A DNA stretch of 22,489 nucleotides, from IMG/VR virus record IMGVR_UViG_3300044961_000400, positions 1 to 22,489 of that record; one strand, given 5' to 3'. Position 1 is the stretch's first letter. Each line of letters begins with the position of its first letter. Both the position numbers and the translations under genes were made by a program. The notes under the pieces were generated by a model that made no database searches, was not told where the DNA came from, and saw only the letters and a list, made by a program, of their open reading frames with translations. This DNA comes from a virus. This document shows, piece after piece, positions 638-20,908 of the stretch.

Positions 638-640
638 CGT

Positions 641-3062: not shown

Positions 3063-3509
3063 TCACTCGATGAGCAGGTCCGTCGGCCCGAGGTACCCGC
3101 GCACGACCAGGCCGGACGGCCCCGATGCCCCGGCGGCGATGCGAAGGCGGAAGTCGGGCCCCGACGGGATCCACCGGAGCGTCTGTCCGTTGCCGGCGCC
3201 AGTCGAGACGACGATCCCGCTCGGCCACGCGCTCTCGATGTCCCAGTCGGCCGAGGTCCCCGCGTTGCCGGTGAGCACGTCGGCGTAGGCCGTCACTGGC
3301 TGGCCGGCGCACTCGATGGTGCCGCGGAATCCGTAGCCGGCGAGCCGGTTACGCCCTTCACCGGGGGCAAAGAAGGGCGAACCGGCGGTGATCGAACCAG
3401 GAGCGGCGACGCCCGATCGCATCCTGGTGGTGTCGAACACGATCACGGATTCACTGTTCCCCGGGGGGATGATCCAGGTGACCGGCAGTACGCGCGGGTA
3501 CGTCTCCAT
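3063..3509 (-). CDS. 148-aa beta-rich minor structural protein
   Basis: Starts at ATG 3509 with a good SD (AGAGGAG, 7 bases upstream). It is mostly short beta strands and Gly/Ser/Ala turns, begins METYPRVLPVTWIIPPGNSE and ends YLGPTDLLIE. There is no signal peptide, membrane helix or catalytic motif. Its place between ejection-type proteins and lysis genes suggests a small virion, decoration or tail-tip protein with a beta-sandwich fold. This is inference; I do not recognise the family. One copy of the recurrent 22-bp element lies immediately upstream of its SD. Confidence 0.65.
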   Translation of the reverse strand: METYPRVLPVTWIIPPGNSESVIVFDTTRMRSGVAAPGSITAGSPFFAPGEGRNRLAGYGFRGTIECAGQPVTAYADVLTGNAGTSADWDIESAWPSGIVVSTGAGNGQTLRWIPSGPDFRLRIAAGASGPSGLVVRGYLGPTDLLIE

Positions 3510-3516
3510 GCGGGCT

Positions 3517-3545
3517 CTCCTCTGCTTTTTGTAGGATGTCCGGTG
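3517..3545 (-). repeat. Recurrent gene-start element, copy A
   Basis: Minus-strand core CCGGACATCCTACAAAAAGC plus AG (3543-3522) starts two bases after the TGA of the 243-aa gene and runs directly into the SD AGAGGAG of the next gene. The 22-bp core is identical to copy B (18291-18312). Confidence 0.7.
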
Positions 3546-4277
3546 TCACAGCGCCGCGATGCGCTCGGCCTTGCTGGCCTGCTCGCGGAACTCGATCTGA
3601 ATGGGCGCAGGGCTCGCCGCGCGCGCCGGGGGCTGCTTCACCTCTGACAGCGGCAGCTCTGGCGGCAGACCCAGGAGCTGGCGCCACAGCTGCTCGTGCC
3701 ACCAGCGCATGGACCAGCCGCGCCGCCGGGTGAGCTGGCGCAAGATCTCCTCCTGGATCATCGCCTGCAGCATCTGCAGGAGCCCCGGGTACACCGCCGC
3801 CAGCGCCTGCACCTGGGCGTCCTGCAGGGTGCCCATGCGCAGCTCGTCCAGGATGCGCTCGGGGCGCTCCACCACGGCCAGCGCGGCGTACGCATCCCCC
3901 AGCTCGGTCAGGGATGGCTCGAGCGCCCGGGGGCCCATGGGCGTGTCGAGCGCCAGGGCCGGCCACAGGGCACGCAGGTACTCCCGGGCGTTCGACAGCT
4001 GCGCGTCGTACGCGCTCGCCATCTCGGCCTCCAGTTCCCGGTGAACATCAGCCAGCTCCTCGAGGCTCACGCCGCGGGTGATGTTCTCGAGGGTGGATTC
4101 GTGGTCAGGGCGCTGGTCCAGGCGGAACCGCCGGGGGCGCTCCTGCTCGATCCACTCCCGCACGGCCGTGCGCCACTGCCGGGGCAGCCGGGCGGCCTCG
4201 GCGCCGTCGCTGCGGGTGACCCGCCGGGGGCGCAGAACGCCGGTGGTGGCGACGAGGCATTCAGCGGCGAGGCTCAC
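3546..4277 (-). CDS. 243-aa alpha-helical virion-region protein
   Basis: GTG 4277 overlaps the stop of the 581-aa gene (GTGA). The protein is almost entirely helical and charged, with amphipathic stretches such as LEELADVHRELEAEMASAYD and WWHEQLWRQLLGLPPELP, rich in Trp and Leu near residues 180-205. No enzymatic motif is seen. It belongs to the run of large internal-protein genes and is most likely a third, smaller internal or ejection component, analogous by position to the multi-protein ejectosomes of P22-type phages. That role is inferred from context only. Confidence 0.65.
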   Translation of the reverse strand: MSLAAECLVATTGVLRPRRVTRSDGAEAARLPRQWRTAVREWIEQERPRRFRLDQRPDHESTLENITRGVSLEELADVHRELEAEMASAYDAQLSNAREYLRALWPALALDTPMGPRALEPSLTELGDAYAALAVVERPERILDELRMGTLQDAQVQALAAVYPGLLQMLQAMIQEEILRQLTRRRGWSMRWWHEQLWRQLLGLPPELPLSEVKQPPARAASPAPIQIEFREQASKAERIAAL

Positions 4278-6019
4278 AGGTCGAGCCCTCCGCTCGACGC
4301 CAGCTTCTCGACGGTGGCCCGAGGCACCCCGTTGCGGATGGCGTCCGCGGCGAGGTCAGCGAGGTCCGCCGCCGTGCTGCCCCCGCCGCGGGCCGCCTTG
4401 GCGAGCCGGGCGAGCGCCACCGAAGCCGCCGCGGCGCGCGCGGTTTCCACGCCCTTCTGCTCGAGCGCGGCGCGGATGTCCTTAAGCGGCGAGAGCATTT
4501 GCCCCATGGTCGGATTGCCGGCCACGTCGCGGGTGCTCTTCTCGGTCAGGATGAGCTTGATGGCAGCGAGGCCCGACACCCGGTCGTTTGTCTTCTTCAG
4601 CAGCGCGCGCGAGATCCCGAGGTCGGGGTGCTTCGCGGCCACCCGCTCCACCTCGTCGTGCAGCACCTTGCGCAGGACCTGGGATACCTCCTCGGCGACC
4701 TGGGCGCGCGGGCTGACGATGCCGTTTTGAGCGCGCGCCGCCTGGTAGGCCAAAGACTGGAACTCCCGGTACTGCCGGCGCAGCTCCTGGAGGGGGATTT
4801 TCCAGGCGACGCCACCGACGGAGGCGTCCGCGTACTGCTCCTGCAGGTCCGCCAGGATGCTGCGCACGACTTTGGCCCGGCCCTTGGTGGCGACGGTGCC
4901 GGCATACGCGTCGGCCAGCTCGCCCAAGCCCTTGCGGATCTCCACCATGGGCGCACCCGCAGTCCGCTCCTGGGCGGTGTCGAAGATGCGGTCCAGGATC
5001 TTGCCCTCCTTGGCCAGGCGCCGCTCGGCCACGGAGATGCCGGCCTCGGCGTCCCCGGCGACCACGGCGGCGCGCAGCTCGCGCGAGCGCCTGAACGCGC
5101 CCTCGATGTTTGCCGCGTTGCGGCCGCGCACGCCGAAGGCGCGGGTCTTCGTGGAGTTCTGCGAGCTGAGCTTGAGCGCCTCCATGGCGTCCGTGACCAG
5201 CGCCCTCTTGCCCGCCTGCAGGGCCAGCGTCGGATCGCCGGCCGCGCGCACGGCGGCGTCCCCGCCGGGCAGGAGACGGGGCTGGGCGTCGGTCGCCACC
5301 GGCAGCCTCCCGGGGATTTTCCGGTCGAGCTGACCGGTAATTGCACGGTGCGGCAAGACGTCGTCGGCGACCAGCGGCCCGAGCCGGCGCGCCTCCGCCT
5401 GCATGGCCTCGGGGCCGGCGGCCTGGGCGGCGCGCAGCTTGGTCATGGCGTGCTCGCGCACCTCGTGCTGCACCTTGGGCCCGAGGCGCTGGGCGGCTTC
5501 CCGGCCTGCGCGCCGCAGGATGGCGGCGAGTCCCCCGGTGACAGCGGGGACGGCCCCGCCGATGGCGGCGCCGGCGCCGGTGTCCAGGGCGGCCTGCCCG
5601 AGCTCACCCCGGGTCAGGTCGGCCTCGCTTGCGCCGAGGCCCGCGGCCCCGCCGATGGCGGCGCCCGCTGCCACCTTGGCAGCCGTGCCCGCCGCGCGCA
5701 GCGCCCCGCCGCCTGGGAGCAGGATGGACGCGAGCCCGCCGCCGACCTGGCCGGCGCCGTAGGCCACGGGGTTTGCCTCCTGGGCGGCGCGAAAATTGGC
5801 GCGGGATTCGTCGCGGGCCTGGGCGTAGGTCTTGCCGGTGAACGCGCTTTCGAGAGCGCCCGAGATCTCATCGGCGTAGCCCAGGGTCACGCCCTGGGCG
5901 ACGCCGCGGGCGGCGCTCTCGATGACGCCGGGCTTGGGGGCGGGCGCGAACGTCTCCAGCAGCTCTTCGACGGAACGGTGGGTCTGCGGGCCGGTGGCGA
6001 GTAGCAGCGGAGCGGGCAT
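4274..6019 (-). CDS. Large internal virion / DNA-ejection protein with glycine-rich membrane-active region
   Basis: 581 aa. Near residues 47-99 is a segment that, from memory, recurs in podovirus internal proteins: GYADEISGALESAFTGKTY, then QARDESRANFRAAQEANP and YGAGQVGGGLAS. Residues ~85-168 are Gly/Ala-rich with glycine-zipper spacing (AAIGGAAGLGA, GAAIGGAVPAVTGG), a pattern expected to insert into membranes. The remaining ~400 residues are helical coiled coil. It is probably packed in the capsid and expelled with the DNA to form a channel across the host envelope. The start ATG 6019 lies three bases after the previous stop. No muramidase active site was recognised. Confidence 0.72.
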   Translation of the reverse strand: MPAPLLLATGPQTHRSVEELLETFAPAPKPGVIESAARGVAQGVTLGYADEISGALESAFTGKTYAQARDESRANFRAAQEANPVAYGAGQVGGGLASILLPGGGALRAAGTAAKVAAGAAIGGAAGLGASEADLTRGELGQAALDTGAGAAIGGAVPAVTGGLAAILRRAGREAAQRLGPKVQHEVREHAMTKLRAAQAAGPEAMQAEARRLGPLVADDVLPHRAITGQLDRKIPGRLPVATDAQPRLLPGGDAAVRAAGDPTLALQAGKRALVTDAMEALKLSSQNSTKTRAFGVRGRNAANIEGAFRRSRELRAAVVAGDAEAGISVAERRLAKEGKILDRIFDTAQERTAGAPMVEIRKGLGELADAYAGTVATKGRAKVVRSILADLQEQYADASVGGVAWKIPLQELRRQYREFQSLAYQAARAQNGIVSPRAQVAEEVSQVLRKVLHDEVERVAAKHPDLGISRALLKKTNDRVSGLAAIKLILTEKSTRDVAGNPTMGQMLSPLKDIRAALEQKGVETARAAAASVALARLAKAARGGGSTAADLADLAADAIRNGVPRATVEKLASSGGLDL

Positions 6020-6022
6020 GCG

Positions 6023-7645
6023 TTACCTTCCGGCGCGCAGGGCGGCCATGATGCGGTCGTGTTCAGGCGTCCCGGGCGGGTGTTGGCGGGCCGCCTGCTG
6101 GAGCTTGGCGATCTCGGCGCTGGACATCTTCGGCGGGCCGCCGGCCGCGCCGATGATCTGCATGACCTGGGCACCGTCGACGCCGTAGGCATCGAACTTC
6201 ATTTGGGCGTTCTCGATGATCCCCTTTTTGAACTGCGCGAGCTTGTTCAGGCCCTGGCCGCGCCAGCCGCGGTCCTTCGGCACCATGTCTTCGGTGAATT
6301 CGACGCTCCCGTGGTCGAGGGCGCCGAGATTCTCCGAGTTCTTGATGGCCAAGGTGATCTGCTTCTGCAGAGCGGCCGCGCGATCTCCGCGCTCGCCGAT
6401 GGCGGGCCCCTCCTTCAATAGCGCCTCCAGCTCGGCCGTCTTCGCGACGAGGTTTCGGACGGCGGCGACCTTATCCGAGGCTTCCTTGTGCTCCTTTTCG
6501 TTGCGGGCGCGGAAGATGGGCTGACCACCGGGGCCGGTGACGATGAGTTCATCGCCCTGGCCGACCTGCTTGGCGGCGGCGAGGCGCGCGGCCTGCTGGC
6601 TGTGGTTGCTGACGGTGGTCTGCTCGCCCTCGCGCACGATGCGGCGTAGGCCCTGCTGCCGCTGCAGCTCGGTCTGCGCGATCTCCCTGTCGGTCGCGTT
6701 GATGAGGGCGTCGGTGCGGATCCGCTCCTCGTCCGCCCCGAACTTGGCCAGGTTGCTCTCGCGCTGGGCGCGGATGGCGCGCAGCTTGGCCTCCCACAGG
6801 TTCGCGGCCTCGACCTCGGCGATCTGGCGCCGCTGCAGGGCGTCCTGCACGCCCTGGCGGGCGCCGCTGACGGCCTTCTCCTGCCGGTCGATCTCGGCCA
6901 TCTCCTTGCGGAAGTGGCGCTCCCGGGCGGCGTTGATGATGGAAAGCGCCGTGTTGGGGCCGGCACCCATGGCCGAGGCGTACTGCCCGAGGCCGATGGA
7001 CAGAGCGGCGAGGATGCCGGAGGCCTCCCGACCCTCGAACAGATCGGTGATCTTCATCCCTGCCAGCTTCTGGCGCTCCCTGTCCAGGTAGGCGGTCGCC
7101 TCGGACTCCTTGCGCTCGTACTCCTTGGCGCGCAGCTCGGCCTCGGCGGCGCGGTCCCGCTCGGCCTGGGCCTCGAGGGCGGCGGCGTCGGCGGTGACGC
7201 CGGCCTTCTGGCTGGCGAGATCCCCGGCGGCGCGGATCTGGCCCTTGCCCGCCTCCTGGGCCGCGCGCAGCTCGCCTGCCGCGGCCTTCTCCTCGTCGGT
7301 GGCCTGGGCCTGCTCGGTGCCCTTGCTGCGGGCGCGAGAGACGTCGGGCCCGATGGGGGGCAGGACCGGCTGCGGGGGCGCGGCGGGCGCCTGGGCGCTC
7401 GTCGGCATGGGCTCCGGCAGGGGAGCGGGCTGCGGCGGGGCCTCCACGGTCGCCGTCGACGGCGACGTCGGCGCCGTGCCGGCGGACGAGACGCCCGGGG
7501 CGAACAGGTTCGCAGCGCGCCCCGCTGCCTGGACCCATTGGATCCCGCCCTGGGCGAGGTCCGCCGCCTGCGGCTCCTCGGGGGCGTAGGCGGTGCCGCC
7601 CACGTCCTCGATGAGGCCGGTCTGCGGGTTGCGTGCGAGGGCCAT
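6023..7645 (-). CDS. 540-aa coiled-coil internal virion protein with Pro-rich linker
   Basis: ATG 7645 overlaps the upstream stop (TGATG). Regions: residues 1-65 low complexity; ~66-92 a Pro-rich linker encoded by the 80-bp repeat; ~105-190 and ~240-370 long Ala/Glu/Arg/Gln helices typical of coiled coils; a hydrophobic patch near 205-225 (GILAALSIGLGQYASAMG) that could contact membrane; and a C-terminal helical domain ending HPPGTPEHDRIMAALRAGR. Size, composition and position between the S74 protein and the 581-aa protein match a DNA-ejection or internal core protein. No enzyme motif is seen. Confidence 0.68.
   Translation of the reverse strand: MALARNPQTGLIEDVGGTAYAPEEPQAADLAQGGIQWVQAAGRAANLFAPGVSSAGTAPTSPSTATVEAPPQPAPLPEPMPTSAQAPAAPPQPVLPPIGPDVSRARSKGTEQAQATDEEKAAAGELRAAQEAGKGQIRAAGDLASQKAGVTADAAALEAQAERDRAAEAELRAKEYERKESEATAYLDRERQKLAGMKITDLFEGREASGILAALSIGLGQYASAMGAGPNTALSIINAARERHFRKEMAEIDRQEKAVSGARQGVQDALQRRQIAEVEAANLWEAKLRAIRAQRESNLAKFGADEERIRTDALINATDREIAQTELQRQQGLRRIVREGEQTTVSNHSQQAARLAAAKQVGQGDELIVTGPGGQPIFRARNEKEHKEASDKVAAVRNLVAKTAELEALLKEGPAIGERGDRAAALQKQITLAIKNSENLGALDHGSVEFTEDMVPKDRGWRGQGLNKLAQFKKGIIENAQMKFDAYGVDGAQVMQIIGAAGGPPKMSSAEIAKLQQAARQHPPGTPEHDRIMAALRAGR
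7366..7445. repeat. 80-bp perfect direct repeat, copy 2
   Basis: Second copy of the block at 2939-3018, about 4.4 kb away, inside the 540-aa gene and in the same reading frame. The identity at silent third positions indicates a recent duplication or gene conversion. Confidence 0.9.
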
Positions 7646-9411
7646 CAGCGCCTCCCTTCCAGCTCGCGGAGCTTGCGAGCGGTCACCGCTGCCAGCGCCA
7701 GCGTGAGCCGGTCCGTGTCGACCTTCAGCATGCCGTCATCCCCCCGGCGCACCGCCTGGCGCCCGAGGGGGCCGGCCTTCTCCAGCTCCTGGGCCATGGG
7801 CCCGGCGCCCTCGGTGGCCCCGTCGTGGGGGTCGGGCTCCCTGTAGTCGTAGACGTGCGACTCGAGCGCCCTGGTGAAGGCGTCAGCGTCCTTGCCGCTC
7901 GCGCCGGTCGCCCGGTCCAGCGCCGCCAAGAAGGCGTCGTCCTCCTCCTCGGTGCTCGGGCGGATGTTCTTCTTGGCGCGCTCGTCGGAGCCCGGGCCCG
8001 CGACGGCGGCCCCAACGGTCCCCGCGGCGCTCAATAGCGCCGCGTCCTTCTGCGCCTTAAACTGCCGCTCCGCCGAGGCGGCGCCGTGCGCCTGCGCGGC
8101 TGCCTGGCCGGCGCCCTGCCGGGCCCCGTGGGCCTGATCCCCGAGCGCGATGTCCCGCTGGATCTGCTGCCCCGTGGTCGTCACGGCGGCGCCCTGGTTT
8201 GCCACCTGGGCCCTCTGCTGCCGGTTCGCGTTCGCGTCGTTCACCTGGGCGATGCGGTCCGCGTTGCCGATGGCCGCCTGCACCCGGAGCGCCTGATCCC
8301 GATCCTGTCGCGTGTTCGCCGCGCCCGCGTTCACGGTGTCCGCCTGCTGGCCGAGCATGGCATTAGTCGTGTTCGCGGTCAGCGTGCGGTCGGCGTTCCC
8401 CGTGGCCACGATGGTGTCCTGCGCGGCCTGGGCCAGGTTCCGCTGCTGGTCCAGGGTCACGTTCGTGGTGCCGGCTGCCAGGCTCCGGTCGGCGTTGCCG
8501 GTGGACGCGGTCAGCGCCTGCCGCGCCCGCTCGATCTCGGTCTGGTTCATCTGCCCCGCGTTGAACTGCGACGTGGCGGCCCCGGTGGCCTGGTTCGCCA
8601 AGCCTGCGCCCTGCCGCAGCCGCGCCTGCTCGGTGGCCAGCGCGGCGTCGCCCGCCCGCATCTGGCTGGCGAGCCGGGCGCCCTGCTCCGTTGCCTGGCC
8701 CACCTCGTGCGCGCGTGCCACCGCGGCCGTGGCAGCGCTGTCGTTCTTCAGCTTGGCGATGTCGCGGGCGGCCTGCCGGCGAGCAAAGGCCCCCTCGTTG
8801 CCCTTGGCGCTGGCCGCGAGGGACAGTTGCTCGTCGGCGATCCCCTGGATGTTCTTGGCGTGCTCGGCGACGGCGACCGACGGCCCCTGCCCCTGGGCCC
8901 GGGCCTCGAGAGCGGACAGGAAGCCGGCCTCATGCCCGCGGGCTGCGGTCGCCTGCTGCTGGTCGATGGTGGCGCCGTCGAAGCGCTCCCAGGATGCCTG
9001 CTGGGCAGGTCCGAGGTTCGGGGCCTGCACTCGCTCCGCTTCGACGCGCTGGGCTGGGGCGATGAACCCCGAGGACACCTGCGGAGCGGCGCCCACGTTC
9101 TGCGCGCTCACCCGCTCGATGGGCCCCGTGCTCTCCACCTGCACCTCTCGGGCGGGGGTCGACTGCGCCTCTTGCACCTGCGGCGGGGCCGGCAGCGACT
9201 GCCCGCGCTCACGCAGGAATTGCTCCATCATGGCGCGGCTGTCGTCGCGGTCCTGCTGGAAGGCCGAGGCGTCCAGCGGCTTGTCGGTATCGCGCTCGCC
9301 GTACCCCAACAGGCCGGTCCCGAAGACACCGCCCCTTCCGCCGAGTCCGGTCCCAAAGAGGCCCTTGTCCCGGGTGAAGGTGAAATCGCCTACAGTGTTC
9401 CAGAATCCCAT
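7645..9411 (-). CDS. Hendecad-repeat virion protein with C-terminal S74 self-cleaving chaperone domain
   Basis: 588 aa, with a good SD (GGAGG) before ATG 9411. Residues ~1-60 are Gly-rich (FGTGLGGRGGVFGTGLLGYG). The middle is long, Ala/Gln/Asn-rich and helical, with an 11-residue periodicity: GNADR recurs at intervals of 33 and 44 residues. From Ser475 the C-terminus matches the intramolecular chaperone of endosialidase (peptidase S74): SDERAKKNI with the nucleophilic Ser, VYDYRE, GPMAQELEKAGP, and the final helix LKVDTDRLTLALAAVTARK. This domain trimerises fibres and cuts itself off. The protein should therefore be a trimeric fibre, spike or needle-like rod made as a 474-residue mature part plus a ~114-residue released chaperone. 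Receptor-binding or depolymerase domains are not evident. Confidence 0.78.
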   Translation of the reverse strand: MGFWNTVGDFTFTRDKGLFGTGLGGRGGVFGTGLLGYGERDTDKPLDASAFQQDRDDSRAMMEQFLRERGQSLPAPPQVQEAQSTPAREVQVESTGPIERVSAQNVGAAPQVSSGFIAPAQRVEAERVQAPNLGPAQQASWERFDGATIDQQQATAARGHEAGFLSALEARAQGQGPSVAVAEHAKNIQGIADEQLSLAASAKGNEGAFARRQAARDIAKLKNDSAATAAVARAHEVGQATEQGARLASQMRAGDAALATEQARLRQGAGLANQATGAATSQFNAGQMNQTEIERARQALTASTGNADRSLAAGTTNVTLDQQRNLAQAAQDTIVATGNADRTLTANTTNAMLGQQADTVNAGAANTRQDRDQALRVQAAIGNADRIAQVNDANANRQQRAQVANQGAAVTTTGQQIQRDIALGDQAHGARQGAGQAAAQAHGAASAERQFKAQKDAALLSAAGTVGAAVAGPGSDERAKKNIRPSTEEEDDAFLAALDRATGASGKDADAFTRALESHVYDYREPDPHDGATEGAGPMAQELEKAGPLGRQAVRRGDDGMLKVDTDRLTLALAAVTARKLRELEGRR

Positions 9412-9425
9412 GGGCCCTCCGTCTG

Positions 9426-12425: not shown

Positions 12426-12721
12426 CAGCCCACCGCCAGGTTGCAGGTGATGGCGGCAGCGCCGGTGTTGCGCAGGTAGACGTTCGTGGCATCGGGCGCG
12501 GCGGTCTGGATCACACCGGCGGTCTCCCCCAGCGTGACCAGTACCTCCCGGGGCGCGTACCCCAGGCCGTGCGGGATTGCCGTCTGAGTCGTCTGCACGG
12601 TGACGCCTTCCAGTCGCCGGCAGAACGCCAGTGGGCCGATGAGGCGTGACCACCGGGCGATCTCCTGCTGCACCTCGAACAGGCTCGCCGTCGGCTGGAT
12701 CCTGAAGGCGCGGTCAGACAC
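12425..12721 (-). CDS. 98-aa small structural protein near the adaptor
   Basis: GTG 12721 lies one base after the adaptor stop. There is an N-terminal helix (SLFEVQQEIARWSRLIGPL), then beta strands with HGLGYAPREVLVTL and NVYLRNTGAAAITCNLAVG. Small proteins of this pattern are, from memory, common between adaptor and hub genes of podoviruses and are probably head-tail or decoration proteins. No enzymatic motif. Function inferred from position. Confidence 0.65.
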   Translation of the reverse strand: MSDRAFRIQPTASLFEVQQEIARWSRLIGPLAFCRRLEGVTVQTTQTAIPHGLGYAPREVLVTLGETAGVIQTAAPDATNVYLRNTGAAAITCNLAVG

Positions 12722-12722
12722 T

Positions 12723-13352
12723 TCAGCGCCCCTCCAGGATGCCGGCCTCAGCCATGACGCCGTATCGACGCCGCAGGTACCACTTGCCCTCGCGCAGGGC
12801 CTCCTCGGCGGCCCTGATGTGCGGCGCGGGGTCCTCCTCGACCCGGACGCGCACGCGCGCGGCTACGCGCTCGGCGATGACCCGGTCGAACTCCGGCGGG
12901 ACGTCCACCACGGTCCCGTCGGCCGAGCCGTCCACCGCCAGGCGGGCCGGCTGGGCGATGTAGGTCGCGCGGTAGTTCCCGGCCGCGGTCAGCTCGGGAT
13001 AGATCTCGAGCACGTTGCCCCGCTCGAGCACCGCCTGGACGTAGCGCCAGGGGATGCGCTCGGGGTCGAGTGGGTTGGCCGCCGCCAGGGCCACGTAGTT
13101 GCCCGGGCCGTTGTCGCGCTCGAGCAGGTGCAGCCGCCCCCACAGCGGCGGGGTGATGGCCCAGGTGTTGCCGGTGGCGATGGTGAACGACACCCGCGCC
13201 AGGTACAGCGACGGGATGAGACTGCCGAGCAGGCGCCGCACGGCCTGGTACTCCTGGTCAATCCACCGGCGATAGGCGTCGGGGGGCACCTGCCCGCTTG
13301 CGTCCTGGTCGGTCGCCGCCCGGACGTCTGCCACCATCTCCGCGAGGGTCAT
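12723..13352 (-). CDS. Head-to-tail adaptor protein (P22 gp4-like by position and pattern)
   Basis: 209 aa, starting at ATG 13352, three bases after the previous stop (TGACCCATG). The N-terminal ~55 residues are helices (MTLAEMVADVRAATDQDASG; YRRWIDQEYQAVRRLLGSLI). A central beta section follows (SFTIATGNTWAITPP), and the C-terminus returns to long Arg/Glu-rich helices (FDRVIAERVAARVRVRVEE; IRAAEEALREGKWYLRRRYG). This helix-strand-helix layout, the size and the position after capsid genes match podovirus adaptor rings that bind under the portal and close the head. The assignment rests on pattern and context. Confidence 0.65.
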   Translation of the reverse strand: MTLAEMVADVRAATDQDASGQVPPDAYRRWIDQEYQAVRRLLGSLIPSLYLARVSFTIATGNTWAITPPLWGRLHLLERDNGPGNYVALAAANPLDPERIPWRYVQAVLERGNVLEIYPELTAAGNYRATYIAQPARLAVDGSADGTVVDVPPEFDRVIAERVAARVRVRVEEDPAPHIRAAEEALREGKWYLRRRYGVMAEAGILEGR

Positions 13353-13355
13353 GGG

Positions 13356-13601
13356 TCAGCGCCCCAGGGCCTCGTCGCGCGCGCTCAGCGCCTCGTGCAG
13401 CGCCTTGGCGTCGCCCAGCTTGAAGGCCCGGATCGCCGCCCGGCAGGCCTCGACGCAGGCCTCCTCGCGGCTGACGTGGGTCTCCCCCTCGTCCTCGTCG
13501 CGCTCCTCGTAGCGCCCGCGGTCATAGCCGCCGATGCGCGAGATCGGCTCGTCCTTGTCCTTGTCGCCCTTGGCCTTGCCGCCGATGACCGCGATCATCA
13601 T
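13356..13601 (-). CDS. 81-aa small charged protein after the capsid gene
   Basis: The start is ATG 13601 (MMIAVIGGKAKGDKDKDEP), chosen over an upstream in-frame start because AGGAAAGGA sits 6 bases before it and because upstream codons fall in the terminator hairpin. The Lys/Asp/Glu-rich N-terminal half (KGDKDKDEP, EERDEDEGE) is followed by a helix with two Cys (REEACVEACRAAIRAFKLGD). Possibly a head-associated or regulatory protein. I do not recognise it. Confidence 0.6.
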   Translation of the reverse strand: MMIAVIGGKAKGDKDKDEPISRIGGYDRGRYEERDEDEGETHVSREEACVEACRAAIRAFKLGDAKALHEALSARDEALGR

Positions 13602-13625
13602 GTCTGGTCCTTTCCTCGTTGCGCC

Positions 13626-13660
13626 AAAGGGCGCGGCGCCCACTCGAGCACCGCGCCCCT
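13626..13660 (-). terminator. Rho-independent-like hairpin after the major capsid gene
   Basis: On the minus strand GGGCGCGG (13658-13651) pairs with CCGCGCCC (13636-13629) over a 14-base loop, with flanking G-T/A-T pairs and a TTT run. It lies just after the capsid stop (13678) and before the next SD. It probably acts as a partial terminator, or 3'-end stabiliser, that boosts capsid mRNA relative to downstream genes. Confidence 0.55.
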
Positions 13661-13677
13661 CGGTCGTGCCGGCTACA

Positions 13678-14955
13678 TTACACGCCGACGTTGGTGCCCT
13701 TGATGAACCGCCCGGGCGCCCCGACGACCAGGTTCAGGATGGCGTACATACGCGCCTCGTAGGCGGCGGCGTTCGTCGCCCGGAGGAACACGTTGCCGTC
13801 GTGGTCGTCCAGGTTGATGAGCTTGCCCGGGTGAACCAGGTAAGCCGCCTCGGGGGTCTTGAAGTCGCCCATGAGGCACTCGCTCTTGGGCGCGTACGGG
13901 TGCGCGAGCACCTTGATTTCGCCGCACATCGCGCCGGTGATGGCGATGCCGTCGAAGGCCACCTTGAACTCCCGCGCGTCGATGCGGATGCTCTTTCCGG
14001 CCGTGTCGAGCGCGTCGCTCAGGGTGGTGTAGTCCTCCACGTTCAAAAAGGCGTGCGTGACCTTCACGCCGCCGAATTGGAAGAGCTTGTTGGCCATGCG
14101 GAGCAGCTTGGTCTTGATGGCCAGGCCCGACGTGGTGTCGCGGAGGCCGCCGAGCTGCCAGACGCCCTGGCGGTTGACCGACATGAAGGACGTCGGGCCG
14201 GGGGCCGCTCCGGGGACCCATCCGCCGAAGCCCATCATCACCCGGGCGTTGCTGTTGGCCGTGTTCTCCTTGGCGTCCAGCCGGTAGAACAGGAAGTCGT
14301 TCGCCGTCACGCTGAACGAGGTCAGGTCACCGCCCGTGATATTGACACAGGTGACGACGCCGGTGTCCTCGTTGATTTGGTCCACCTCGGCGTACCCGTT
14401 GCGGGTGTTGCCCGTGTCCGCCGCCGCCGCGAAGGTGACGTCGTCGCCCTTGCTGAGGCGGTTGACGGCCCAGGTGGGGACGGTGAACGTGGTCGCCGTG
14501 CGCGCGCTGATGCGACAGAGCGCCCCGGTGCCGTCGCCCCAGGCGTGGATCGAGATGCGGCGGCGAGCGGACCGCATGCGCCCCTGCATCTCGGCGTCCG
14601 CCAGGTCGAAGAGGTCCGTTTCGCTCTGGCACTCGTGGATGACGTCGCGATCCCACTGCGCCGTCGCGTTCAGGGTGGCGTGCGGCACCTCCCATCGGCT
14701 GTAGGCGTTGCGGCTGCCGAACGTCGACCCCTGGCTCTTGGCCTGGATGTCGGCGAAGGCGCCGAAGCCGACGGACGAGCCGTCTCCGTAGTGGATCGGC
14801 TGCACGAACTTGCGGCCGAAGCTCTTGGCCGCCTGCCGCTTCTCGAGGATGCCGAGCAGCGGATCGATCTGCTCGTCGTCCCAGAGGATCTTGGCCGCGT
14901 TCTCGTTGACGTTCTCGATGAGGGCGGCGGAGACCGCCGTTAGATCTGCTCCCAT
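13678..14955 (-). CDS. Major capsid protein
   Basis: 425 aa with a strong SD (GAGGTGA) before ATG 14955, directly downstream of the scaffold gene. The N-terminus is helical (LIENVNENAAKILWDDEQID), followed by KSFGRKFVQPIHYGDGSSVG and GFGAFADIQAKSQG, resembling the N-arm/E-loop region of HK97-fold shells. The C-terminal half has mixed strands with GEIKVLAHPYAPKSECLMGD and ends MYAILNLVVGAPGRFIKGTN. Order (portal, scaffold, this gene), length and its own terminator all point to the shell protein, present in hundreds of copies. The subfamily cannot be fixed without a search. Confidence 0.8.
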   Translation of the reverse strand: MGADLTAVSAALIENVNENAAKILWDDEQIDPLLGILEKRQAAKSFGRKFVQPIHYGDGSSVGFGAFADIQAKSQGSTFGSRNAYSRWEVPHATLNATAQWDRDVIHECQSETDLFDLADAEMQGRMRSARRRISIHAWGDGTGALCRISARTATTFTVPTWAVNRLSKGDDVTFAAAADTGNTRNGYAEVDQINEDTGVVTCVNITGGDLTSFSVTANDFLFYRLDAKENTANSNARVMMGFGGWVPGAAPGPTSFMSVNRQGVWQLGGLRDTTSGLAIKTKLLRMANKLFQFGGVKVTHAFLNVEDYTTLSDALDTAGKSIRIDAREFKVAFDGIAITGAMCGEIKVLAHPYAPKSECLMGDFKTPEAAYLVHPGKLINLDDHDGNVFLRATNAAAYEARMYAILNLVVGAPGRFIKGTNVGV

Positions 14956-15008
14956 GGGTCACCTCGGTCGAGCGGACTGGAGCGCTCGGCCGTGGCGTCC
15001 CGGGATGC

Positions 15009-15977
15009 CTACGACCGAAGGAAACGGCGCTTGATGGCGGCTGCGCGCTCCGAGTAGGGAGCGTCCATGCCGGGCATCTCGCCCGCGTCGCTGCGCCCCG
15101 CCCGCCTGTTGCTGTTGGGGGGGGTGGTGGTTCCGCCCTGCCGCTGCGCTTCGACCGTCTTCGGGGCGTATTTGCCGGTGGCTTCGACTTCGGAGGAGAT
15201 TTTCCGCTCGAAGTGGTCGAGGACCTCCTCTTGCGAGGGGGCGACGCCCTTCTCTCGGTAGTACTCCTCTGCTCTCCGTAGGATGTCCGGTGAGGCCACT
15301 CCGAAGCGGGCCACGAGCGGCCATCGCTCCGGCTCTGCGTTAAGCGTCGCGCCCACCGTGCGCAGGTAGCTCTGCACCCGCTCGTTGCCGGCGGCCTCCC
15401 GCGCCTTCGCGGCGGCCTCGGCCTTCTCCTTCTCCCGCCGGTCCACCTCCTCCTGCACGCGGCGGCGCAGCCTGTCGTCTTCGCTCTCCGGCTTGGCGCT
15501 TGCCAACACCTCATCGGTCAGCTCCTGGTACAGGGCGCCGGTGATCTCCTCGGAGTCGAAGAGCGCCTTGAGCGCGGCGACGCGCCCGCCCTTGGTCCTG
15601 GCCTCGTAGAACGCCCGGATCTTGGCCAGGTCGCTCTCGGCCTCCTTCACCCTGGCTTCGCGGGTCTTGACGTCCTCCTCGCCGCGGGCGATGCGGGCGA
15701 GCCGCTTGGCCAGCTCGGTGTCAGCCTCGACCGGGGCGGCGGAGGCGCCGGAAGATGCCGCGGCGTCGCTCGCGCCGCTGTCCTTCGCCGGGGCGGTCGG
15801 CCTGGAGGGCGCCCCCGCTCCAGCGGGCGGCACCTTCATGAGCCCCTTGGCGGCCAAGATCTCCCGCCCCTTGGCCTGGGCCGCGGCTTTTGGGTCTACG
15901 ACAGGCGCGGCAGGGGCAGCGGGGGCGCTCGATGCGGCAGGCGCCGCCGGTGCGGCGGGCGCGGTCGGGTCTGACAT
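15009..15977 (-). CDS. Scaffolding protein
   Basis: 322 aa with SD GAGGAG before ATG 15977. The N-terminal ~85 residues are Ala/Pro-rich and flexible. Residues ~85-230 are a long charged coiled coil (LAKRLARIARGEEDVKTREA; DDRLRRRVQEEVDRREKEKA). The C-terminus is basic (AAAIKRRFLRS), as needed to touch the capsid interior. Such Ala/Glu/Arg-rich helical proteins just before the capsid gene template procapsid assembly and exit before packaging. No protease motif is seen. The segment SPDILRRAEEYY is encoded by a diverged copy of the recurrent gene-start element (15269-15290). Confidence 0.78.
   Translation of the reverse strand: MSDPTAPAAPAAPAASSAPAAPAAPVVDPKAAAQAKGREILAAKGLMKVPPAGAGAPSRPTAPAKDSGASDAAASSGASAAPVEADTELAKRLARIARGEEDVKTREARVKEAESDLAKIRAFYEARTKGGRVAALKALFDSEEITGALYQELTDEVLASAKPESEDDRLRRRVQEEVDRREKEKAEAAAKAREAAGNERVQSYLRTVGATLNAEPERWPLVARFGVASPDILRRAEEYYREKGVAPSQEEVLDHFERKISSEVEATGKYAPKTVEAQRQGGTTTPPNSNRRAGRSDAGEMPGMDAPYSERAAAIKRRFLRS
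15269..15290 (-). repeat. Recurrent gene-start element, copy D (inside scaffold gene)
   Basis: 22 bases matching copy A with three differences, all in the T-rich part. The following GCAGAGGAG also matches. Here it is coding, giving SPDILRRAEE, unlike the other three copies. Confidence 0.5.
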
Positions 15978-16035
15978 GTGGTCTCCTCGGCTTCGATGGC
16001 GGTGAGGAACGGGCAGGACGCGGACGAACGGGCGC

Positions 16036-16287
16036 TCAGCAGTCGCCGAGCCTCGCGAGCAGGCGGCGGGCCTTGCTGCCGATGCCGCTGACGGGGTCCG
16101 GATGGGCGGCGGCGACCTCGCGCAGGAGCGCGGCCAGCTCGGTGCGGTCGATGTCGACCGCGACGAACACCGCAGCCGGCGCGGCCTCGGCGGCGACGTT
16201 GGCGGCCTCGGCCTGCCCGGTAATTCCCTCGGGCGAGTTCTCTGGCGTCACGGCCTCGGGCGCGGGCTTCTTGGTTCGCTTCGACAC
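16036..16287 (-). CDS. 83-aa small acidic protein between portal and scaffold
   Basis: The start is GTG 16287 with AGGA five to six bases upstream, 8 bases after the portal stop. The upstream in-frame extension is Arg/Pro-rich and overlaps the portal gene, so it is rejected. A basic Lys-rich start (SKRTKKPAPEA) is followed by Ala/Glu-rich sequence, then VFVAVDIDRTELAALLREVA, a predicted strand and helix. Small proteins at this spot are often head-assembly accessories. Function unknown. Confidence 0.6.
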   Translation of the reverse strand: MSKRTKKPAPEAVTPENSPEGITGQAEAANVAAEAAPAAVFVAVDIDRTELAALLREVAAAHPDPVSGIGSKARRLLARLGDC

Positions 16288-16295
16288 GGGGGTTC

Positions 16296-18107
16296 CTACG
16301 CCGCGGGGGCGGCTCCTTGGGTGGGGGCGGCAGTCTCGGTGGCGGCCGCCTGCTGGCTCGTGGGCGCGGGGGCAGCGGCGCCGTCCCGCTTCGCGATGAG
16401 CATCTTCGTGTGCGCCACGAGGCGCCGGCACAGCTCCAGGTTCTCCTCGGGCCAGCTCTCGTTGACCTGCGCGCGCATGAGCTCGCGAGAGGCGTACTCG
16501 TACAGGTCATCCAGCGGCTGCACCGGGTCCGGCGGGATGTAGACGCCGTCGACCAGGGCGGACTCTACCTGCCGTTTCGCCAGGTCCACCGGGGCCGTGG
16601 CGTTGTCGGTCATGCTCTCCGTGTCGGGCAGGCGCAGCATGGACAGCCCGTCCCGGGCGTTGATGAGAGGCTTGCCGGCCTGGTCTACGAGCTTGAGCGC
16701 CTCGGCGACGAACTCCAGTCGTCCCGCCACCGACTGCGGCAGAGCGCTCGACGTCGTCACGAGCAGGGAGATTTCCGACTCCTTGAGGCCGATATCCTTC
16801 CAGCGGACTTCTCGCAGCAGCCTCGTGCCGGGGGCCCGCACGACCGCGTCCCGATTCTTGTAGGCGTCCTCGGCCAGCATGAGCACGATGCGGGCGCTGT
16901 CCTGGTAGAGCGCCTCGAAGCGCCGAATCTGGTCGGATAGCCGCTGGCTGACGAACTCTCGCCACTCCCGCTGCGCCGGGGCGCTGTTGACGCCGTTGGG
17001 GCGCATGCCGGCTGCGGCGCCCTGGTTCACGCCGGCCAGGCCGAAGGCGTTCTCGCGGATCATCTGCCGCAGGACGGGCAGGTCAGGAGGTATCACCTGT
17101 GGCGCCTCGATCTTGGGCGCGATCTGGCCCCGGTACAGGACCTTGGCCAGCGGCGTGTCGCCGGTGATGGTCGACTCGGCCAGCTCGTGCTCGATGATCC
17201 GAGGCACGGCGGCGCGCGACGCCTCCACCATGATGCGCACGAGCTTGTTGTCCCAGGTCTGGTGCCCCAGGAGGAGCTGGGCCAGCGGCGTCCCCGCCGT
17301 AGTATTCCAGTCGTCCTGCCAGCGGATGAACGCGACCGGCAGGCGCGGCAGCTCCCACTTGCGGCCCTCCAAGATGGCCTTGCCGCAGCGCTTGATGTAG
17401 CGGCCTGGGGTCTTGCCCACGGGCAGGCACCACGAGTGCACCACCTCGCGCCGGTCGTAGACCGTCGCGTTCCAGCGGATCCGCGCTTCGTCGGTGGTCT
17501 TCCACAGCGGCGCCGCCAGGATGTCGCTGGCGTGCTCCGGGTAGTCCGCGAGCAGCTGCCGTTCGCTCACCCCCTCGGCGGCGTGGAGCTCGACCGGGTC
17601 CTTCTCGTCGCCCTCGTCCCACCACAGGTGATGAGGGTTCCACCAGCGGCCCCGGATGGCGCTGTCGCGGCAGACCTCCCACAGGATCGCGCCCACCGTG
17701 CACGCCGTGGACGTGCCCCAGGCGCGGGTCGCCAGCCGGTCCATGTCGGAGGCGTGGAACACGCCCTGCAGAAACCGCCCCATGAGCACGGAGCCCCGCT
17801 GGACCCGGAACGTCTCGCCCACCGGCTGCGCGCGCACCGAGGGCGGGTTGCAGATCTGGGGCCGGGCGGCGTCGATGACCTCGCGAATGAGGCTGAAGGT
17901 GCTCCCCCTCATCTCCTCCACAGCGGCGAGCGCGGCGCGGGCAGCAGGGCCTGCCTGGTCGCGCCTGGGGACGAGCGGCCGCTGGTGGTAGAGCGCCACC
18001 AGGGCGCGCTCCGTGGCCACGCGGGCGGCGTGGGCGGCCTGGAACCGCTCCGACCAGTAGGCGACCTTCTCCTGGTCGACCGACCAGTGCGGGACGCGGG
18101 TGCTCAC
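16296..18107 (-). CDS. Portal protein
   Basis: 603 aa, GTG 18107 overlapping the previous stop (GTGA). It lies between terminase and scaffold, and the size fits podovirus portals. N-terminal helices are followed by the ring core: STFSLIREVIDAARPQI, then the beta-rich wing with WNPHHLWWDEGDEKDP, AILEGRKWELPRLPVAFI, and FIRWQDDWNTTAGTPLAQLL leading into the tunnel-loop/stem helices (LLLGHQTWDNKLVRIMVEAS). The C-terminus ends in an Ala/Pro/Gln-rich tail. It forms the dodecameric ring through which DNA enters and leaves the head, and it docks the terminase and the adaptor. Confidence 0.82.
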   Translation of the reverse strand: MSTRVPHWSVDQEKVAYWSERFQAAHAARVATERALVALYHQRPLVPRRDQAGPAARAALAAVEEMRGSTFSLIREVIDAARPQICNPPSVRAQPVGETFRVQRGSVLMGRFLQGVFHASDMDRLATRAWGTSTACTVGAILWEVCRDSAIRGRWWNPHHLWWDEGDEKDPVELHAAEGVSERQLLADYPEHASDILAAPLWKTTDEARIRWNATVYDRREVVHSWCLPVGKTPGRYIKRCGKAILEGRKWELPRLPVAFIRWQDDWNTTAGTPLAQLLLGHQTWDNKLVRIMVEASRAAVPRIIEHELAESTITGDTPLAKVLYRGQIAPKIEAPQVIPPDLPVLRQMIRENAFGLAGVNQGAAAGMRPNGVNSAPAQREWREFVSQRLSDQIRRFEALYQDSARIVLMLAEDAYKNRDAVVRAPGTRLLREVRWKDIGLKESEISLLVTTSSALPQSVAGRLEFVAEALKLVDQAGKPLINARDGLSMLRLPDTESMTDNATAPVDLAKRQVESALVDGVYIPPDPVQPLDDLYEYASRELMRAQVNESWPEENLELCRRLVAHTKMLIAKRDGAAAPAPTSQQAAATETAAPTQGAAPAA

Positions 18108-18289
18108 TGTTCACCGCCGAACAGGTCAGGGTCCACGGCGCCGAGGCCCTCGATGTAGGTCGCACCCCGTGAGACGACGGGCGTCTCGGGGGCGCCCGTC
18201 GCCTCGAACTCTATGCCCTGGCCCTTGAACGACCGGACGCCCATGGCCTTGAGATCACGGACCAGCTGCACGATCTCGGCGGGGGTCAT
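18104..18289 (-). CDS. 61-aa small protein between terminase and portal
   Basis: ATG 18289 follows copy B of the recurrent element directly, so the SD (AGCAGG) has almost no spacing; the end overlaps the portal GTG. The sequence begins with a helix (AEIVQLVRDLKAMG) followed by a strand pair (VRSFKGQGIEFEATG). Tiny proteins of this form recur upstream of portal genes. The role is unknown. Confidence 0.6.
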   Translation of the reverse strand: MTPAEIVQLVRDLKAMGVRSFKGQGIEFEATGAPETPVVSRGATYIEGLGAVDPDLFGGEQ

Positions 18290-18290
18290 C

Positions 18291-18312
18291 CTGCTTTTTG
18301 TAGGATGTCCGG
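18291..18312 (-). repeat. Recurrent gene-start element, copy B
   Basis: 22 bases identical to 3522-3543. It occupies the gap between the terminase stop (TAA, 18320-18322) and the ATG of the 61-aa gene. Confidence 0.7.
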
Positions 18313-18319
18313 GGCTCCA

Positions 18320-19726
18320 TTACGCCGCGGCGGCCTTGGCAAACAGGCGCGCATGCTCGGTATCCCCGTCGGGCGGCCCCGGCGGGCGGAAGCTCCAGTG
18401 CGGCCAGGCGCTGCGCACGGCGTAGATGAGCGCGTCGACCCGGTCCGGGGTGTGGCCCCTGAGCCTGCCCGTGCGCGGGTCGCGCTGGACGCGCAGCAGG
18501 TCCCGGAAGAGCGCCTCGGTCTCGACGTCGTCCCGGGCGAAGACCAGCTCGCGGTTGCGGATGACGTTGGCGACGATGCGTGCCCAGAACTCCTTGTCGC
18601 TCTTCTGCGTCGCCTCCATCTGCACGCCTTCCTTGCTGGCGATGTCGTCCATGACACCAGCGCCTCCGCCAGCCGGATCGCCCACGCCGCCGAGGTAGCC
18701 CCGGCCGATGCTCCGGATCTCGTGGGCCATGAACTTCGCCGCGTCGGTGGGGCCGCAGGCCCAGGCTCGGTTGCGGATGGCGAACAGGCGCGGGTCGACA
18801 TCGCGGGCCCACCCCAGAATCTGGAGGGCGTTGAGGTCCCGCAGGCCGAAGTCGGCGCCCGACGTGTAGGCCCAGCGGTCCGAGCGGGGCAGCTCGGCGT
18901 AGACGTTCGCCTCCCGGTCGAGGTCCCCGAACATGAGCGCGGCCCGGTCGAGCACCCAGCGCCCGAAGAACTCCCGCTGGATGGTCGGATCGTCCTCGGT
19001 GACGTGCAGGTCACTGCAGGCATCCGCGAGCGCCCTCTGGGGGTTCCTGACGTGCGGGTTCCGCCACATCGTCAGCCCGGTGGACGTCCCGTGCTGGCTC
19101 CAGGCCTGGTTCTGCGTGATGGCGTACCACAGGGACACCTCGGGGTCAGGCACGGGCCCCGGGACGCCGCCCACGGTCAAGCGCCCCTCCCGGTCGGCCA
19201 GCGCCGCCGGCACCACCTCGGACAGCAGGTGCCGCAAAAGCTCGTCGCGCCAGTCCTGGGCCTCGTCCACGTAGAGCGAGGCGATGGGCGGCAGCTTGCC
19301 CTTGACCCGGTTCACGTGCCGCTTGCTGTCGCCGCCGCCCAGCCGAATCCAGCGGTTGCGAGGGCCCTTGAGGGTTAGGTCCGCCTCGTTCGCGACGTAG
19401 GGCAGGTCCGCCGCCTCCGCGACGGCCTTGAGCACCTCCCAGAAGGTGCCCTTGGCCCGGTCGCGGGTTTCGTTCAGGTAGTAGACGGTGGCATCCGGGC
19501 TGCGCCAGCTGTCGTCGAGGATGCCGAGCGCAAAAGCCGAGGTCTTGCCCGCGCGGCGGGTGGTGCAGGCGGCGCGCCGGCTCGCACGGTCGCGCAAGAA
19601 CGCCGCCTCGGCGTCGTAGGCCCCGAACTTCGGGGCAGTGGGGTCAAACGTCGGCTCGTTCGCCGCGCCGGCCCTTCGCCTCGCCAGCTCGAGCCTGACC
19701 GCCAGAGCCCGCGCCTGCCTCAGCAT
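18320..19726 (-). CDS. terL: Terminase large subunit (ATPase/nuclease packaging motor)
   Basis: 468 aa; ATG 19726 with SD GGTGA. The ATPase domain has a Walker A-like RRAGKTSA at residues 57-64, Walker B SLYVDEAQ with Asp154-Glu155, and a coupling segment around ITQN. The RNase-H-like nuclease domain supplies acidic residues in SGADFG (Asp292), GVGDPAG (Asp350) and HTPDRVDAL (Asp428/Asp431). It cuts the concatemer and drives DNA through the portal ring. G/C-third-position bias is strong from the first codon, supporting this start even though the upstream 99-aa frame overlaps by 83 bases. Confidence 0.9.
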   Translation of the reverse strand: MLRQARALAVRLELARRRAGAANEPTFDPTAPKFGAYDAEAAFLRDRASRRAACTTRRAGKTSAFALGILDDSWRSPDATVYYLNETRDRAKGTFWEVLKAVAEAADLPYVANEADLTLKGPRNRWIRLGGGDSKRHVNRVKGKLPPIASLYVDEAQDWRDELLRHLLSEVVPAALADREGRLTVGGVPGPVPDPEVSLWYAITQNQAWSQHGTSTGLTMWRNPHVRNPQRALADACSDLHVTEDDPTIQREFFGRWVLDRAALMFGDLDREANVYAELPRSDRWAYTSGADFGLRDLNALQILGWARDVDPRLFAIRNRAWACGPTDAAKFMAHEIRSIGRGYLGGVGDPAGGGAGVMDDIASKEGVQMEATQKSDKEFWARIVANVIRNRELVFARDDVETEALFRDLLRVQRDPRTGRLRGHTPDRVDALIYAVRSAWPHWSFRPPGPPDGDTEHARLFAKAAAA

Positions 19727-19943
19727 GGGTCACCGGCTCTCGCTCGAGTCTGCTCGCCAGGTCCTGCGGATAGCCGACGTCGCCGGCCCAGACCACGCCG
19801 TCGACGAGACACAGGTCCTCGATGACCCTGGACGGCGAGCCCTGCGCGGGGACGTCCTCACTGCCCCGGATCTCCTTGAGCGTCCCGTGGGGGCCGTGGA
19901 CGCTCGCCCTGAACTCGACTCGTCGAAGCTTCACCATCGTCAT
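19644..19943 (-). CDS. 99-aa small protein overlapping terminase start
   Basis: ATG 19943 (a second ATG lies six bases on). The first ~65 residues look real: strands KLRRVEFRASVHGPHGTLKE, IEDLCLVDGVVWAGDVGYP, and strong G/C third positions. After HAEA the codon bias collapses where the frame runs through the terminase start. A TGA three bases before the terminase ATG in another frame reproduces the operon's TGACCCATG junction, so an indel could have lost the natural stop. Function unknown. Confidence 0.5.
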   Translation of the reverse strand: MTMVKLRRVEFRASVHGPHGTLKEIRGSEDVPAQGSPSRVIEDLCLVDGVVWAGDVGYPQDLASRLEREPVTHAEAGAGSGGQARAGEAKGRRGERADV

Positions 19944-20379
19944 CGTCGAACTCCCTGCAGTCGTGGAAGAGCAGGTATCCGCTGCCGCGCGCCACGATCC
20001 GCGCCGCTGCGTAGGTCCAGAAGACCAGCCCGACCGGGGCGGGATTGCCGCCGGGGGCGAAGTCGATGCCGAGTGCCTCGGCTGCGCTGGTGGCCACGCC
20101 CATCCGCCGGTAATGGTGCCGCACGCAGGCCCACACGATCACGCGCTCGTGCGGCCGGGCGGCGATGGCGCCGATGAGCTTGCCGGGCATGCCCTTGGGG
20201 CTGATGACGTAGGCCACGGTCCCCGGGCGCGCCAGCTCGCGCACCAGCCGCTCGCGCAGGCGCCAGCCTGGGATCTCCCGCCATGGCCAGTGCGACCGCA
20301 GCGAGGACAGGAAGTCCCCGTAGACGAGGCCCCCGTGGGCCTCCGGGTCGAACGCCTGCAAGTCGAAGTCAGCTGGCAT
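19858..20379 (-). CDS. GNAT-like N-acetyltransferase family protein
   Basis: 173 aa; ATG 20379 overlaps the previous gene by 11 bases. The core reads like a GNAT fold: strand TVAYVISPKG, strand KLIGAIAARPHERVIVWACV, then HYRRMGVATSAAEALGIDF, which carries the R/Q-x-x-G-x-A pyrophosphate-binding pattern at the start of helix 3 (RRMGVA). Then VGLVFWTYAAARIVARGSGY. Podoviruses often carry such a gene next to terminase; the acceptor is unknown and host-protein acetylation is speculative. The last ~28 residues overlap the next gene and lose codon bias. Confidence 0.55.
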   Translation of the reverse strand: MPADFDLQAFDPEAHGGLVYGDFLSSLRSHWPWREIPGWRLRERLVRELARPGTVAYVISPKGMPGKLIGAIAARPHERVIVWACVRHHYRRMGVATSAAEALGIDFAPGGNPAPVGLVFWTYAAARIVARGSGYLLFHDCREFDDDDGEASTSRVQGERPRPPRDAQGDPGQ

Positions 20380-20536
20380 CGCTCCCGACCAGCTCCAGTG
20401 CGACCGCGACCATCGGGCCGACCGGCCGCGCGTGGTACGCCGCCATCTCGTCGACCACGGTCACGCCGCGGTCGGACCGCCAGGCGCTCGCCGCCTCCAG
20501 GTCGTGCGCCTCGGGGCCGTACGTCTCAGCTGACAT
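20369..20536 (-). CDS. 55-aa small protein
   Basis: The start is ATG 20536 (MSAETYGPEAHDLEAASAWR), with a strong SD GGAGGAG upstream. The longer in-frame start lies inside the previous gene and lacks one. It overlaps the previous stop by 11 bases and the next start by 11 bases. It has a mixed charged helix and a hydrophobic end (PMVAVALELVGSDAS). Unknown function. Confidence 0.55.
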   Translation of the reverse strand: MSAETYGPEAHDLEAASAWRSDRGVTVVDEMAAYHARPVGPMVAVALELVGSDAS

Positions 20537-20858
20537 TGCACTCCTCCCTGGTCGCGGCGTCCATGCCCTCGTCAAGGGCCTCCAGAGCAGACTCGCTCAT
20601 GCGGCGGGCCTGGCGCAGCTCCGCGCGGAAGGCATCCGCGCTCGCGCGCCCAAGGTCCGCTAGCCGATCTGTCAGCGCCATGAACCGCCTGAAGTCCTCG
20701 TCCGTGAGGCGACCGCCCGGGGCGGCCCTCTGCGCCCGTCCCAGCGCCTGCAGCTCGGCCCGCATGAGCGACGCCGCCTCGTCCAGGAGCTCGTCCGGAT
20801 CGGCGGGGCTGTCGTCGATGACGACGGGGGGCGGAGGCGTGCGCTTTCGTCGGGCCAT
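20526..20858 (-). CDS. 110-aa helical protein near terminase (possible small terminase candidate)
   Basis: The start is ATG 20858 (MARRKRTPPPPVVIDD); longer in-frame starts run through the 246-aa HTH gene. After a basic/Pro-rich head it is nearly all charged helix: DPDELLDEAASLMRAELQAL, LTDEDFRRFMALTDRLADLG, AFRAELRQARRMSESALEAL. Size and position would suit an oligomeric small packaging subunit, but no HTH is visible, so this is only a possibility. Confidence 0.6.
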   Translation of the reverse strand: MARRKRTPPPPVVIDDSPADPDELLDEAASLMRAELQALGRAQRAAPGGRLTDEDFRRFMALTDRLADLGRASADAFRAELRQARRMSESALEALDEGMDAATREECNVS

Positions 20859-20886
20859 GGCTTCAACGCGAGGGGAGGCCCTCCCT

Positions 20887-20908
20887 CTGCTCTTTGTAGG
20901 ACGTCCGG
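20887..20908 (-). repeat. Recurrent gene-start element, copy C
   Basis: 22 bases matching copies A and B with two changes, beginning immediately after the TGA of the 246-aa gene. The first half is now the perfect palindrome GGACGTCC. It precedes AGAGGGAGG and the start of the 110-aa gene. Confidence 0.65.

Follow-up and report, generated by a model that had tools for sequence, protein, structure and literature searches.

What does a 22-bp sequence do that recurs at the gene junctions of a phage late operon, always in one orientation? The question arises from the window analyzed here, an entire IMG/VR record of 22,489 bp (about 71% GC) that is itself a fragment, and the number of copies reported for it covers this fragment only. 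Its genes form a podovirus-like late operon on the minus strand, in the order HTH protein g2, g3, g4, acetyltransferase-like g5, terminase large subunit (TerL), g7, portal, scaffold, capsid, tail genes, g16–g19, and endolysin (Table 1). The operon also encodes a protein with a C-terminal Peptidase_S74 intramolecular chaperone domain (7645–9411, minus strand), which is probably a tail fiber or spike. Elsewhere in the window, an exact 80-bp duplication (2939–3018 and 7366–7445, 4.4 kb apart, in genes 2844–3059 and 6023–7645) is a recent copying of a Pro/Ala-rich segment.

Table 1. Copies of the repeated element and surrounding features, in the order of the late operon. G001 and L019 are relatives described in the text.
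Feature	Position	Strand	Context and evidence
g2	20909–21649	minus	C-terminal sigma-region-4/LuxR-like HTH; candidate trans-acting factor; upstream of copy C
Copy C	20887–20908	minus	Upstream of g3, the first gene of the terminase block
Inverted repeat GAGGGAGGGCCTCCCCTC	20870–20887	minus	After copy C; conserved in G001 with the following GTTGAAGCCATGG
g3	20526–20858	minus	First gene after copy C
Terminase large subunit	18320–19726	minus	phrog_2, E 6e-22
Copy B	18291–18312	minus	Follows TerL (stop 18320) and precedes small gene g7 (ATG 18289)
Portal	16296–18107	minus	Synteny and homology to relatives
Scaffold gene	15009–15977	minus	Contains copy D; between portal and capsid; 31–35% identity to G001 and L019 counterparts
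Copy D	15269–15290	minus	In frame within the scaffold gene; the capsid gene ATG follows after about 315 nt
Major capsid protein	13678–14955	minus	phrog_14242, E 3e-7; 48% (G001) and 50% (L019) identity; proposed target of copy D
g18	3546–4277	minus	Upstream of copy A; 42% identical in G001
Copy A	3522–3543	minus	Between g18 (stop 3546) and g19 (ATG 3509)
g19	3063–3509	minus	Downstream of copy A

The Repeated Element and Its Placement

The element, CCGGACATCCTACAAAAAGCAG, is exact in copies A and B, carries two changes in copy C and three in copy D, and is recovered as the same four-copy family by a repeat scan of the window. The list of four copies in the first-pass annotation, with their coordinates, strand, and mismatches, is confirmed. 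No member of the 22-mer family appeared in 100 shuffles of the window (the chance expectation is none), in line with the view in that annotation that an exact 22-mer found twice is not chance. The three intergenic copies had also been described as starting 0–7 bases after a stop codon and leading into the next gene, and this holds at each junction: copy A starts 2 bases past a TGA (3548–3546) and ends 12 nt before its ATG, with a good SD; copy B starts 7 bases past a TAA (18322–18320) and is followed after 1 nt by an ATG that has no SD; and copy C starts 0 bases past a TGA (20911–20909), with the ATG (20858) 28 nt after the element.

The noncoding DNA that separates copy C from g3 holds a further conserved feature, in which an inverted repeat (GAGGG..GGCCTCCC..TC) and the adjoining GTTGAAGCCATGG are preserved between the window (20870–20887) and the relative L005 (8895–8915), phages whose TerL proteins are 44% identical; this could be a packaging or regulatory site.

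Relatives Carry Their Own Words at the Same Places

No other IMG/VR contig carries the exact CCGGACATCCTACAAAAAGCAG. A relaxed IMG/VR search with the 22-mer gave one hit, in the unrelated contig L018, where AT-rich coding sequence matches by chance. Neither bacterial genomes nor annotated phages yielded a TerL match, and single-sequence capsid searches of phages and IMG/VR were likewise without result. The first-pass annotation had regarded a lack of copies in related phages as evidence against its proposal; such a lack is found for the exact 22-mer only, whereas the core and the positions of the element do recur.

The nearest relative, G001 (the same genome as L005), is syntenic with the window, with identities of 44% for TerL, 39% for portal, 48% for capsid, and 31% for scaffold. 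Its record has a 127-bp terminal overlap and thus represents a complete circular genome of 38 kb. The word GGGACATC, which contains the element core GGACATC, occurs seven times on the late strand of G001 and never on the other, and five of these sites lie at places orthologous to the window copies, namely after g18 (8429; copy A), before g3 (27707; copy C), between TerL and portal (30493 and 30564; copy B), and within the scaffold gene (33922; copy D). No 8-mer other than GGGACATC is shared by all four orthologous intervals of G001, a result obtained independently of the window sequence. Random interval sets in G001 shared a 7-mer in 32 of 20,000 trials and an 8-mer in 5 of 20,000, the latter figure being somewhat optimistic because the intervals, although bordered by gene ends, were picked after the word had first been seen in the printed sequence. 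A second relative, L019, has the core (3116) at the scaffold-gene position that also matches copy D and G001 33922. The G001 copy at 27707 occupies a gap, about 100 bp long, downstream of a lipoprotein gene that is encoded on the opposite strand; this gene is homologous (E 3e-8) to the lipoprotein-like gene at 979–1599 on the plus strand of the window, and its place relative to the late operon differs between the two genomes.

The far relative G003 (the same genome as L007; 41% GC, TerL 26% identical) instead has the 17-mer ATAACGCCCACTTTATT, which is unrelated to the element and occurs four times unchanged on the late strand (195, 7391, 38154, and 51838). The copies at 7391 and 38154 occupy the g18–g19 and TerL–portal gaps, which are orthologous to the sites of copies A and B; the probability that four random noncoding places in G003 reach both gaps is 0.007 (0.0009 if placed anywhere). 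Thus, all three lineages have an element at two junctions, each with a word of its own. The 17-mer was revealed by a k-mer test on automatic ORF junctions, which nevertheless missed the known copies in the window and G001. Repeats were seen in three genomes only, and searches by exact 13- or 16-mers found none in the other relatives, many of which are short fragments. In the G003 scaffold gene, the 17-mer has a 3-mismatch copy at 42312; no better than chance and differently placed, it was left out. A 17-mer match outside G003, in L037, is a chance occurrence in unrelated DNA. Three of the four G003 17-mers are directly followed by a short stem-loop (195–260, 7408–7440, and 51855–51880; e.g., AAGACCTTGTGTCTT; by eye), as if transcripts started with a 5′ hairpin. 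Long arrays with a 15-nt period are also found in G003 (21350–21980 and 47500–49800), where several genes encode ADLSGANL-type pentapeptide-repeat proteins.

Because the relatives hold a signal at the same places despite its changed sequence, a control signal is very probable, and we are confident, from these sequence comparisons, that the repeated element is a functional, positionally conserved signal of some kind. A phage-specific regulatory signal had been the first option offered for the element, and it is strengthened by the finding that relatives have their own elements at matching places. The positions are kept, the sequence turns over, and the copies within a genome change together, which argues for a site read by a trans-acting factor. 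Copies that arose in the scaffold gene, spread by recombination or gene conversion, and mark the boundaries of shuffled genes with no regulatory role would fit the identity of two copies over 22 nt and the long match of the coding copy (26/29 nt; see below), and gene conversion can yield concerted sequence within a genome. Yet different words stand at these positions in G001, as they do at two of the positions in G003, and the flanking late genes are syntenic in G001 and unshuffled; we regard this account as very unlikely. Derivation of the junction copies from the scaffold gene, a suggestion of the first-pass annotation, is itself unlikely since relatives have different words at these same junctions.

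Anatomy of the Element

In an alignment of ten copies, GGACATC is followed by ten variable bases, a pyrimidine–purine step, and G-rich sequence, with the step at positions 18–19 in all ten. A start at this step would give SD leaders of about 15 nt for copy A and the G001 copies at about 8430 and about 30565, and would make copy B and the G001 copy at about 30494 near-leaderless ATG starts. As a sign of transcription initiation the step is suggestive only, because the four window copies are not independent. The G003 17-mer is followed by purines in its copies (AGGAGA, AGGGAT, GAGAGT, and AAGACC). The element differs from sigma-70 promoters in that no −35/−10 hexamers about 17 bp apart are recognizable in the copies; outside the single block, alignment by eye gave no sequence common to them. 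This and the GC-rich presumed melting region of the G001 copies count against a promoter. The placement of copies at the heads of gene blocks (including before the capsid gene), the single orientation, and the start-like step favor late promoters, and we put the chances at about even that the element serves as a transcription start or activation signal of the late operon.

The same placement could reflect a signal that works at the RNA level in the transcript, whether by controlling translation through a hairpin that hides the SD or the start codon, by causing antitermination or pausing, or by directing RNA processing. Three of the four copies, in a single orientation, separate a stop codon from the start that follows; pairing of CATCCT with AGGATG in copy B could span the start codon; and the G001 copies at 8429 and 30564 fold into hairpins that hide the SD. 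However, copy D and its counterparts have no nearby start codon or stable hairpin, the structures are unlike between copies, and the window yields no Rfam match, so that an RNA-level role is, in our judgment, unlikely.

The Copy Within the Scaffold Gene

Copy D is read in frame within the scaffold gene (..ASPDILRRAEEYY..). Over a 29-nt extension of copy A, the two agree at 26 positions, against a best of 22 among 300 triplet-shuffled windows, and copy D is therefore not accidental. It uses two codons that are rare in the window genes, CTA for 10 of 494 leucines and AGA for 2 of 544 arginines, and thus looks like a DNA-level signal carried in coding sequence, the alternative to scaffold-gene ancestry that the first-pass annotation had raised. 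The scaffold cores of G001 and L019 encode an Asp-Ile pair, and a constraint on this pair in the protein, written with common codons, could be an alternative account of the cores in those two genomes.

A Candidate Reader Encoded Upstream of the Terminase Genes

The C-terminal HTH of g2 matches Sigma70_r4_2 (E 6e-5) and sigma70-ECF (E 2e-6) at sub-threshold level, and the G001 counterpart also has a sigma-region-4/LuxR-like HTH. An HTH gene is present upstream of TerL in the window and in six relatives (L005, L007, L011, L012, L014, and L023); in L007/G003, L011, L012, L014, and L023, the proteins are about 130 aa long and show the same pattern. The long g2 of the window is connected to this short family weakly by pairwise profile, the link being synteny and multiple alignment, and an hhalign comparison of g2 with its G003 counterpart was not significant. 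Structure searches with two g2-family models gave no significant PDB match, and RinA/ArpU/Ltr family models in NCBIfam and PHROG did not match g2. The protein may be a small terminase instead.

T7-type promoters are about 20 bp long, occur in near-identical copies, and have a purine-rich start, all of which the element resembles. A promoter for a T7-type single-subunit phage RNA polymerase would accordingly suit both the geometry, including the purines after the G003 17-mer, and the near-exact copies. Against it, no cognate polymerase gene was found in the relatives, neither in complete G001 nor in G003: PF00940 had no match in either (control genomes gave none either), the ORF lists of both agree, and the longest ORF of G001 (817 aa) matches tail protein g14. 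This makes such a promoter highly improbable. With no single-subunit phage RNA polymerase found in complete G001, g2 acting with the host RNA polymerase is the best candidate for the reader.

Comparison With Known Systems

The closest precedent is the late promoters of phiEco32 and Salmonella phage 7-11, which have dissimilar sequences at similar genome positions (PMC8948821). In these phages, six to eight sites head middle and late gene blocks, the promoters, whose starts are mapped, are either bipartite or made up of one −10-type element, and the phage sigma factors that recognize them are distantly related (15% identity; PMC8948821). The element likewise heads late blocks in the window, G001, and G003, and its positions are kept while its sequence changes between relatives. 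The difference is that phiEco32 and 7-11 encode recognizable sigma factors, whereas the phages described here have only a candidate HTH protein, and the core GGACATC is not a known element. The RinA/Ltr systems, in which the gene for a small late regulator immediately precedes the late promoter and terS and one promoter produces one long transcript (PMC13123087), are similar in gene order: the window and six relatives have a g2-family gene immediately ahead of the terminase genes, and the proteins of the relatives, at about 130 aa, are of Ltr size (PMC13123087). The element differs in having at least four sites rather than one promoter, and in the family-model result given above.

The first-pass annotation had likened the element to the start-associated sequences of cluster K mycobacteriophages (GGGATAGGAGCCC), which are short asymmetric repeats at gene junctions in one orientation, 3–7 bp before start codons in the non-structural half of the genome (PMC3203893). 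The general form is shared, but the likeness does not extend to sequence (CCGGACATCCTACAAAAAGCAG), to spacing from the start codon (12, 1, and 28 nt), or to gene class (virion genes), and one copy lies inside a gene; membership in that family was rejected.

Cluster A stoperators are about 30 asymmetric 13-bp sites spread through the genome, mostly in one orientation, with a motif that diverges together with the binding protein (PMC6550527). The element shares the asymmetry, the orientation, and the divergence, and could thus be a repressor-binding site of a temperate phage that stops late-gene read-through in the prophage; its occurrence at gene junctions in one orientation, with sequence varying between relatives, is as in cluster A phages (PMC6550527), and both an HTH_3-like gene and, by eye, an integrase-like ORF are present in G001. 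A 45-bp imperfect palindrome in the window (631–675, minus strand; TGGACATCGCGAGAATAGT-TCTCTAG-ACTGTTCTCACGATGTCCA, with 17 of 19 arm positions matching) covers the start of gene 637–2, has GGACATC in its arms, adjoins further GAGAACA-like words, and looks like an operator. Just upstream, a 92-aa ORF (695–973, minus strand) has the look of a Cro/CI-type HTH protein (by eye), which suggests a lysogeny or early control region. The GGACATC within this palindrome, near a possible Cro/CI-like gene, would suit stoperators; however, this is one 7-mer match only, the surroundings of the G001 HTH_3 gene (at about 15.3 kb) lack GGACATC, and instead of about 30 sites there are just four in the window fragment and, in complete G001, five that occupy conserved positions, these sites heading late blocks. 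We consider a stoperator role quite unlikely.

Proposed Mechanism and Implications

The repeats, their positions, their co-variation within each genome, and the existence of the HTH gene are observations; the action of the element on transcription, its start point, and the role of g2 we infer as follows. The element would most likely be a compact late promoter, or else the principal site bound by a factor that switches such a promoter on. Its copies would head successive gene blocks, with copy C serving the terminase block, copy B the g7–portal–scaffold block, copy D, from within the scaffold gene, the capsid gene, and copy A the block from g19 to lysis. The predicted transcription start is the pyrimidine–purine step 18–19 nt along from the first base of the core, which would place GGACATC at about −18 to −12. 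The reader is probably phage-encoded and changing over time, in which case the copies in one genome would co-vary while their positions stay; the HTH protein g2, acting with the host RNA polymerase, is the best candidate. In its most specific form, the proposal is a new type of late promoter that is compact (about 20 bp), resembles T7 promoters in geometry, and works without a phage RNA polymerase, through the host polymerase and a fast-evolving HTH family encoded upstream of the terminase, with one promoter inside scaffold sequence driving the capsid gene. We offer this as a tentative possibility that is more doubtful than the general late-operon signal.

The element provides a regulatory grammar for short-tailed phages known only from metagenomes, together with a candidate regulator and testable sites. 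The search for lineage-specific repeats at orthologous junctions offers a route to finding promoters in unknown phages. If the promoter reading is true, these phages would be a further case, beside phiEco32 and 7-11, in which promoter positions are conserved while sequence and reader diverge together.
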